NCBI RefSeq assembly: GCF_965363235.1
Contig: NC_134842.1
Span: forward strand, 37,179,958-37,243,957
Origin: Mytilus galloprovincialis
Taxonomy: Eukaryota; Mollusca; Bivalvia; Mytilida; Mytilidae
DNA: 64,000 bases
Direction: 5' to 3'
The notes below the pieces were generated by a model, which saw only the letters and a program-made list of their open reading frames with translations, ran no database searches and was not told where the DNA came from. Of the stretch, positions 42,901 to 45,900 are shown piece after piece. The first letter of the stretch is position 1. Each line of letters begins with the position of its first letter. The position numbers were made by a program, and so were the translations under genes.

Positions 42901-45900
42901 CTGTTTCAAATTTGACACTGTTTTGTTATTTGTTTTTACTGTTGAAATTAGTTGTTATGTTAAAATAGATAATTATTCACCTTGAGCAATGTGTTGTTGT
43001 TGACCATTCGAGATTCTTTTTTTGCGAACCTGTCTTCAGCCGTCTTCAGCGTAATGTGTGATTTTGATATTAATACGCGGGCCTCAAGGGATTACAAAAT
43101 GAAAATAAATACTAAATATGTAAGTTTTTTGTGTCTTTCAAAACACAAACAATATACAGAATTAATTGCAGGATAAAGGCAATAACTGTTTAGTGTCTTT
43201 ATATATCAGTTGTATTTGTACTCGGCTCGAAACAGGTGTAGTAGCTCGCTAAAAGCTCGCATACACCTTGTTTCCTAGCCTAGTACAAATACAGCTGATA
43301 TTTAAAGACACTAAACAGTTATTGTCTATGTAATCATGTGTTTCATGACAGATGAATGTAAATACACCAAGATATACTCACCAGATATAATAGAAATGTA
43401 TGTAATCCTGTGTTTCATGACAGACTTATGTTAATACACCAAGATATACTCAACAGATATAATAGAAATGTATGTAATCCTGTGTTTCATATCAGACTTA
43501 TGTTAATACACCAAGATATACTCACCAGATATAATAGAAATGTATGTAATCCTGTGTTTCATGACAGACTTATGTTAATACACCAAGATATACTCACCAG
43601 ATATAATAGAAATGTATGTTATCCTGTGTTTCATGACAGACAAATGTAAATACACCAAGATATACTCACCAGATATAATAGAAATGTATGTAATTCTGTG
43701 TTTCATGACAGACTTATGTTAATACACCAAGATATACTCACCAGATATAATAGAAATGTATGTAATCCTGTGTTTCATGACAGACTTATGTTAATACACC
43801 AAGATATACTCACCAGATATAATAGAAATGTATGTTATCCTGTGTTGCATGACAGACGAATGTAACAAGTGAAACTGCGAGCTACTGCTCACTGATGATA
43901 CCCCCGCCGCAAGTGGATAATATTAATAGTGTAAAAATATGCAAGTGTTCGGTAAACAGGAAGTTGTCGAGTGATGAATCTGAAAACGCATCACACGGTA
44001 TAGCTGACTTATATAAATCCTGAAACCAAATTTCAGAAATCCTTGTATTGTAGTTCCTGAGAAAAATGCGACGAAAATTTTCAACTTGGCTATCATGTGT
44101 AAAATCATACAAGTGTTCGGTAAACAGGAAGTTGTCGAGTGATGAATCTGAAAACGCATCACACGGTATAGCTGACTTATATAAATCCTGAAACCAAATT
44201 TCAGAAATCCTTGTATTGTATTTCCTGAGAAAAATGTGACGAAAATTTTCAACTTGGCTATCATGTGTAAAATCAGACAAGTGTTCGGTAAACAGGAAGT
44301 TGTCAAGTAATGAATCTGAAAACGCATCACACGGTATGGCTGACATATATAAATGTTGATACCAAATTACAGAAAGGGTGGATGTGTAGTTCCTGAGAAA
44401 AATGTGACGAAAGTTTCATGGGACGGACTGACTGACGGACGGACTGACAGACAGAGGTAAAACAGTATACCCCCCCTTTTTTAAAGCGGGTGTTTTAAAA
44501 GGGGGTATAAATACACCAAGATATACTCACCAGATATAATAGAAATGTATGTAATCCTGTGTTTCATGACAGACTTATGTTAATACACCAAGATATACTC
44601 ACCAGATATAATAGAAATGTATGTAATCCTGTGTTTCATGACAGACTAATGTAAATACACCAAGATATACTCACCAGATATAATAGAAATGTATGTAATC
44701 CTGTGTTTCATGACAGACGAATGTAAATACACCAAGATATACTAACCAGATATAATAGAAATGTATGTTATCCTGTGTTTCATGACAGACTTACGTTAAT
44801 ACACCAAGATATACTCACCAGATATAATAGAAATGTATGTAATCCTGTGTTTCATGACAGACTAATGTTAATACACCAAGATATACTCACCAGATATAAT
44901 AGAAATGTATGTAATCCTGTGTTTCATGACAGACTAATGTAAATACACCAAGATATACTCACCAGATATAATAGAAATGTATGAAATCCTGTGTTTCATG
45001 ACAGACGAATGTAAATACACCAAGATATACTCACCAGATATAATAGAAATGTATGTTATCCTGTGTTTCATGACAGACGAATGTAAATACACCAAGATAT
45101 ACTCACCAGATATAATAGAAATGTATGCAATCCTGTCCACAGACCTACAGACGATAGTACACCAAGATATACTCACCAGATATAAAGAAATGTATGTAAT
45201 CCTGTCCCCAGACCTACAGACGATAGTACACCAAGATATACTCACCAGATATAATAGAAATGTATGTAATCCTGTCCCCAGACCTACAGACGATAGTACA
45301 CCAAGATATACTCACCAGATATAATAGAAATGTATGTAATCCTGTCCCCAGACCGAAGACGATAGTACACCAAGATATACTCACCAGATATAATAGAAAT
45401 GTATGTAATCTTGTCCCCAGACCTACAGACGATAGTACACCAAGATATACTCACCAGATATAATAGAAATGTATGTAATCCTGTCCCCAGACCTAGATGA
45501 TAGTACACCAAGATATACTCACCAGATATAATAGAAATGTATGTAATCCTGTCCCCAGACCTACAGATGATAGTACACCAAGACCTAACCAATAGGCACA
45601 CCATAATACATATTTCTCTATTTTTGCAACATACTGAAAAATAAGAACATAATATCATGGGTTATAAATACTATATAAATGATTTCTTCTTAATAAGTCT
45701 AATATTTCTTTTCAGCTTAACATTTCATTTATACAAGTAAAAATAAAAAAAAAATAAAACAAGAGGCTCTCAAGAGCCTGAATCGCTCACCTGAATTTTT
45801 TTGGTTTAATCTCTCATCAATGATTATTTTGGCTTTTCAATTTATTTAAATGTTCTTTGAATCGTCCTATTTTCTTCAAAAGCAAAAAAAAATCATTTTC

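Follow-up and report, generated by a model that had tools for sequence, protein, structure and literature searches.

A minisatellite made of exon-end and splice-donor copies next to VMP1 exon 4 in Mytilus galloprovincialis, with shorter arrays in a large dispersed repeat

In the human gene 6-16/G1P3 (IFI6), a minisatellite with multiple splice donor sites has been described (Turri, Cuin and Porter, NAR 1995; PMC306954) and, as far as the accessible part of that report goes, it is the best known parallel for a tandem array that provides many donors. Near intron pairs of Drosophila are comparable in that, according to the accessible part of the source (PMC2891723), splice signals are likewise supplied by tandem duplication at or near an exon border. 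Here we describe an array in the mussel Mytilus galloprovincialis, within a stretch of 64,000 nucleotides (the window; C5:37179958-37243957, contig NC_134842.1), where exon 4 of VMP1 is followed by a minisatellite whose units repeat the end of the exon together with its splice donor. The array was noticed in an initial annotation made from the letters alone, and the overall observation was confirmed, with the correction that the array lies on the minus strand. We consider it probable that unequal recombination or slippage at the border of exon 4 and intron 4 gave rise to this minisatellite, that the first donor is the one used, and that the array is a tolerated by-product. The part of this explanation that concerns origin is well supported, and the part that concerns splicing is inference.

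VMP1 is encoded on the minus strand, with recognizable exons from ~51.6 to 28.0 kb of the window when searched by tblastn with a human VMP1 query. The same query placed exon 4 (79% identity, E 8e-14), which follows the acceptor TTTTTCAG and is translated as YVAKIEK..FLLYL. Its donor, exonic CTG followed by GTGAGTAT, shows 9/11 matches to the U1 consensus that was used for donor scoring, and a pairing energy of -11.1 kcal/mol. Exon 5 starts at 42388, and the intron 4 in between measures 3,134 nt. The exon border and the array comprise the following features, in window coordinates.

45523..45633, minus strand: VMP1 exon 4, source of the repeat (111 nt, ending in phase 0)
45512..45522, minus strand: true 5′ splice site of exon 4, GTGAGTATATC, from U1 match and pairing energy
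45096..45511, minus strand: six type-A units, u01-u06, of 68-70 bp, each the exon end (~59 nt) plus 11 nt of intron, from decomposition and alignment
44520..45095, minus strand: eight type-B units, u07-u14, of 72 bp, each the intron-4 start (34 nt) plus exon end and donor (38 nt), apparently recombinant in structure
43803..44519, minus strand: type-B unit u15, interrupted at about 43864-44509 by a dispersed repeat of ~650 bp, from decomposition
43371..43802, minus strand: six type-B units, u16-u21, with u20 lacking GT, from decomposition and donor scoring
43329..43370, minus strand: tail (..CACATGATTACA), the original intron-4 start in diverged form, by alignment with the corresponding intron of the dispersed copy C3

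Read in the direction of VMP1, the array consists of 22 donor-bearing units of 68-72 bp set head to tail, u00 being exon 4 itself and 21 lying downstream of the true donor, followed by the ~42-nt tail, in agreement with the earlier count of "about 22". Units u00-u06 measure 68-70 bp and u07-u21 72 bp, except for the interrupted u15, and Tandem Repeats Finder reports the array as two pieces (43327-43857, 7.4 copies; 44510-45552, 14.7 copies). The agreement in period, phase and exon match far exceeds what chance would give. Decomposition upheld the derivation of the repeat from the end of exon 4 and its donor, directly after the exon and in the same orientation, and also the predicted run of donors with authentic exonic flanks: GT is kept in 20/21 downstream units, and 19/21 donors match the true one at all 11 nt. 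At the level of DNA, an exon-end 5′ splice site is thus part of the unit, as in minisatellites of the 6-16/G1P3 kind. The deviating donors are those of u11 (GTTAGT, -7.1) and u20, in which GT is lost (-4.6). The claim that each unit copies the last 60 nt of the exon held for the six units u01-u06 (~60 nt) but not for the 15 distal ones, which copy only the last 27 nt and the donor: the last 38 nt common to type B are 27 exonic and 11 intronic nt, and the first part differs from type A. As for the ~650-bp insert in u15 (window 43864-44509), it is built of 168-bp internal tandem units and, in the genome searched (1.385 Gb, 331 contigs), has 39 other matches at 93-99% among those listed (best 40 of 2248 candidates scored).

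The initial annotation also held that the other half of the distal units had been replaced. This half does differ from type A, but replacement by a foreign repeat was rejected, because the left 34 nt of type B match the start of intron 4 at 32/34 positions versus 23/34 for type A. The right 38 nt, in turn, match type A at 38/38 positions versus 28/39 for the intron, and type B thus reads as a recombinant of the intron-4 start with the exon end and donor. Two strings common to both exchange partners, TCTnGGTGTA and CAnGATTACA, probably mark the sites of exchange. When the end of exon 4 with its donor was aligned with the presumed original intron-4 start, taken from copy L032, the local score was 53; when the intron piece was shuffled 10,000 times with its dinucleotides preserved, the mean was 21.2 and the highest score 41. 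This resemblance indicates that an old, decayed duplicate of the exon border was already present in the intron before the array arose.

Once a ~715-bp insertion is removed, the array tail and the rest of VMP1 intron 4 align to intron 4 of copy C3, implying an ancestral intron of ~0.28 kb versus 3,134 nt today. The two pieces concerned are as follows.

42614..43328, no strand: ~715-bp insertion in intron 4, missing in copy C3, with its high end in a palindromic repeat resembling miniature inverted-repeat transposable elements (MITE-like), by alignment
42389..42613, minus strand: rest of the original intron 4, as far as the exon 5 acceptor, by alignment to the dispersed copy

In a search with 43200-43500, the unit part matched this locus only and the MITE-like part (43200-43335) matched 38 other genomic places among those listed (best 40 of 1104 candidates scored).

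Shorter arrays of the same kind occur elsewhere in the genome. A query running from u01 through exon 4 into intron 3 (45444-45700) matched 16 places besides the window, on ten contigs, at 94-96% over its full length (18/18 candidates scored). The VMP1 match ends at window position 45712, 79 nt into intron 3, in 16/16 copies, and each copy has exon 4, units with the type-A junction, and a last donor in GTGAG context followed by CACTTTATCTAGGTGTATTAACATTAGTCTGTCATGAAACACATGATTACAAACATTT; all 16 arrays end in the same, presumably original, intron-4 sequence. Donors total 4 in two copies, 5 in five, 6 in five, and 7, 8, 9 and 11 in one copy each, and type-B units are absent throughout. Five copies compared at length were mostly 98-99% identical. 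Since the 16 copies have from 4 to 11 donors and the five compared are this similar, the number of units appears to change fast, and the instability characteristic of minisatellites is seen in the 16 dispersed copies. The portion of VMP1 involved extends well beyond exon 4.

30197..45712, minus strand: span of VMP1 that recurs, with gaps, in a large dispersed repeat (79 nt of intron 3, exons 4-9), from the common end at 45712, exons 5-9 and the exon-9 piece

Among five copies that were extended, exons 5-9 and their introns were found in three (C3, C2 and C14 at 29.39 Mb), exons 5-7 up to the end of the stretch in the C14 copy at 27.19 Mb, and exons 5-7 without exon 8 or 9 in the stretch fetched for the C11 copy at 40.59 Mb. 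An exon-9 piece matched 17 dispersed places at 92%, namely 15/16 exon-4 copies (C11 at 40.59 Mb excepted) and two places without exon 4 (C33 and C5:19.1 Mb), so that exon 4, exon 9 or both, together with introns, are present at 18 dispersed loci. The exon-3 piece, on the other hand, had a full-length match in the window only, the other listed matches covering at most its first 78 bases (best 40 of 419 candidates scored). Downstream of exon 4, copy L032 has in intron 4 a ~0.8-kb element of 169-bp tandem units that VMP1 lacks.

These dispersed arrays bear on two other explanations. The evidence comes from a single assembly, and an assembly artefact might be suspected, but arrays of the same exon end at 16 other loci, with differing lengths, weigh against a local error, as do the specific insertion that interrupts the VMP1 array and the private variants of its two subtypes; we give an artefact almost no credence. 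The second explanation reverses the direction, with the dispersed repeat as the source and the VMP1 array acquired by gene conversion, and would account for the type-A junction found in both. We regard it as very unlikely, given that type-B units are present in VMP1 but in 0/16 copies. In addition, the pieces shared by VMP1 and copy C3 have diverged by 2-8%, and exon 3 has no second full copy among the matches listed, which argues that the copies derive from a VMP1-like gene. A later gene conversion of type-A units alone is possible.

The VMP1-bearing repeat is more than 47 kb long and has dozens of copies. Four pieces of copy C2 (three left, one right) span 47.6 kb, from C2:35270299 to 35317899, and each recurs in dozens of places, the best-scoring at 95-100% (best 40 candidates scored for each; some places hold several matches). 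A left C2 piece lies within about 31 kb of all 16 exon-4 copies, 14 of them with one piece search and the other two with another. Some copies of the repeat, for example C14:11210043-11259334, contain all four pieces yet appeared in neither the exon-4 nor the exon-9 search. Genes of the repeat's own were not found in the frames inspected, the longest stop-to-stop frame being 170 amino acids in a 44-kb copy and 75 in the next 8 kb, and Pfam searches with nine of the 125 frames of a repeat copy gave nothing at E 0.1; with the VMP1 exon 4+5 peptide, Pfam gave RIFIN only (E 0.076, far below the family cut-off).

An ordinary mobile-element satellite, comparable to the Helentron-borne satellites of bivalves, could have landed by chance beside exon 4. 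Several tandem elements of 160-170 bp do occur in the window, one of them splitting u15, and exon-4 arrays also lie within the dispersed repeat. This explanation is nevertheless highly improbable, since all units end in exon-4 sequence plus donor, type A being exon with 11 nt of intron, and since in the five extended copies the array continues into VMP1 exons 5-7 or 5-9 with their introns. Moreover, no array units were found in repeats lacking VMP1 sequence (18/18 candidates scored, after a first pass that skips very common words). The unit of a Helentron-type satellite belongs to the element, whereas here the units are VMP1 exon and intron sequence. Other repeats in or near the window include three more arrays of ~160-bp units (window 33471-34224, 39949-40685 and 41107-41888), two of them followed by GGAC runs and all probably belonging to mobile elements, a minisatellite with some 25 units of 32 bp (window 13636-14424), and, just outside the VMP1 stretch, a common repeat (L029:3913-4215; best 40 of 366 candidates scored, all 96-100%).

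Growth of the array at VMP1 itself, the explanation we prefer, would have proceeded in steps, the first of them shown and the later ones inferred from sequence. A decayed duplicate of the exon end and donor adjoined exon 4, and it is kept as the intron start in the dispersed copies. An exchange at TCTnGGTGTA would then have yielded the 70-bp type-A units, probably before the dispersed copies split from VMP1, because VMP1 and the dispersed copies have the same junction. In the VMP1 lineage, a second exchange at CAnGATTACA may have joined the intron start to the exon end and donor as type B, and this recombinant would have multiplied. The donor would have been carried passively in the unit, the similarity of the copies reflecting recent turnover rather than selection.

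Conservation of the donor half was examined by counting variable alignment columns in 7 type-A units, 15 type-B units (with the two parts of u15 put back together) and 78 internal units of the dispersed copies; the 98 dispersed units also include the last unit of each of the 16 copies and 4 of a different length, which were set aside. Columns are non-independent events, and the p-values for variable columns are therefore rough. In the donor 9-mer 0, 2 and 1 of 9 columns were variable (type A, type B, dispersed), and special conservation of the 9-mer was rejected by the pooled counts (3/27 versus 25/185 elsewhere, p=1.0). In the same order, the donor half (last 24 exonic and 11 intronic nt) had 2/35, 4/35 and 2/35 variable columns and the other half 6/35, 8/37 and 6/35, differences that were not significant in any group alone (p 0.26, 0.35 and 0.26). 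Within type B alone, the shared core had 5/45 variable columns versus 7/27 in the other block (p=0.12), and circular shifts gave values as low as those observed in 16/72 cases for the 45-nt core, 21/72 for exon 24 plus intron 11, and 53/72 for the donor 9-mer. The bias toward a less variable donor half is equal in non-genic copies (2/35 versus 6/35), and GT is intact in 21/22 VMP1 units versus 97/98 dispersed units (p=0.33). Because the bias is mild, recurs to the same degree outside the gene and has no focus at the donor, it does not point to selection on splicing. Thus the idea that exon end and donor are kept while the other half is replaced survives as a slight difference between halves, visible in the identities within type B (a comparison that the initial annotation had proposed) and in the pooled column counts but not significant in any group alone, and fails for the donor 9-mer itself.

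Only 31 of 7,035 GT sites (0.44%; whole window, both strands) match U1 as well as the true donor, and 21/31 are the true donor and array sites. Read-through past exon 4 adds nine codons (VSISWCTII) before a stop within u01, so that any of the 21 later donors, if used, would give a premature stop and a truncated protein. The distance from a donor to the CTGTAG of the next type-A unit is only 32 nt, which looks too short for a new intron. In the explanation by passive growth, splicing would mostly use the first donor, since this one is transcribed before the others and is the nearest to the exon 4 acceptor (exon definition); rare use of later donors would yield early-stop transcripts that are destroyed, and the array would be tolerated rather than useful.

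Several observations weigh against this explanation. The donor half is mildly less variable when the groups are pooled (8/105 versus 20/107, p=0.02), and in type B the mean pairwise identity is 97.9% in the shared core versus 92.2% in the other block. By folding in 200-nt windows, the true donor did not look more accessible than those of the later units (mean unpaired 0.29 for u00, 0.25-0.55 for later units). When a donor is duplicated, some in vitro systems can favor the intron-proximal copy, in which case the array would be expected to do harm, and the identity of 19/21 later donors to the true one could then mean use, or youth. Finally, the proposed sequence of events is based on a comparison of VMP1 with the dispersed group, two lineages with no outgroup species.

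Part of this evidence would fit a functional decoy array, in which the donors are under selection, either as a poison extension that tunes VMP1 output or by holding U1 on a long intron: 19/21 later donors are identical and pair equally with U1, any use would lead to a premature stop, and the pooled difference between halves is in its favor. We think it unlikely, however, since donor columns are as variable as the remaining ones, the same bias recurs in units outside the gene, where GT is retained in 97/98 cases, and array length differs among dispersed copies, although those copies are not known to be genic. A long shot, still more speculative, is that the array acts as a length-variable rheostat of a conserved autophagy and endoplasmic reticulum gene, in which about twenty equal 5′ splice sites compete, each win of a later site brings an early stop, and unit number shifts VMP1 output between individuals. 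The raw material of such a rheostat (exon 4 with arrays) has also been spread genome-wide in a giant repeat with VMP1 exons 4-9.

The locus is a natural experiment on splice-site choice: the spliceosome is presented with some twenty 5′ splice sites that are near-identical, as are their exonic flanks, and a wrong choice would spoil the message of a conserved gene. It also appears to show the birth of a minisatellite at an exon border, from an old duplication through decay of the intron copy to recombination of both, with an earlier stage preserved at other loci, and it brings to light a very large dispersed repeat in which the central part of a host gene travels along with its introns. Among the papers listed in literature searches, none was a mussel case by title, and no unit with a long exonic flank, recombinant unit type or preserved earlier stage turned up.

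The unit of the 6-16/G1P3 minisatellite, at the exon end, is reportedly about 12 bp. In the VMP1 array, by comparison, the units measure 68-72 bp and include as much as ~60 nt of exon, one of the two unit types is recombinant, and a shorter stage is preserved at 16 other loci. In the Drosophila near intron pairs, as described in the accessible part of the source (PMC2891723), a new intron arises, whereas in VMP1 21 donor copies lie inside an existing intron. The ABCA7 variable number tandem repeat (PMC5954066) and the LHX3 repeat in dogs (PMC3223203) are likewise intronic tandem repeats with a possible effect on splicing, but the accessible parts of these sources do not describe their units as copies of a neighboring exon and donor. 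Lastly, the satellite-like repeats of oyster Helentrons (PMC7492417) are, in the part of that report available, likewise short tandem arrays that mobile elements have dispersed, also in a bivalve; unlike them, the VMP1 array originates from a host gene and has been dispersed within a stretch of that gene.
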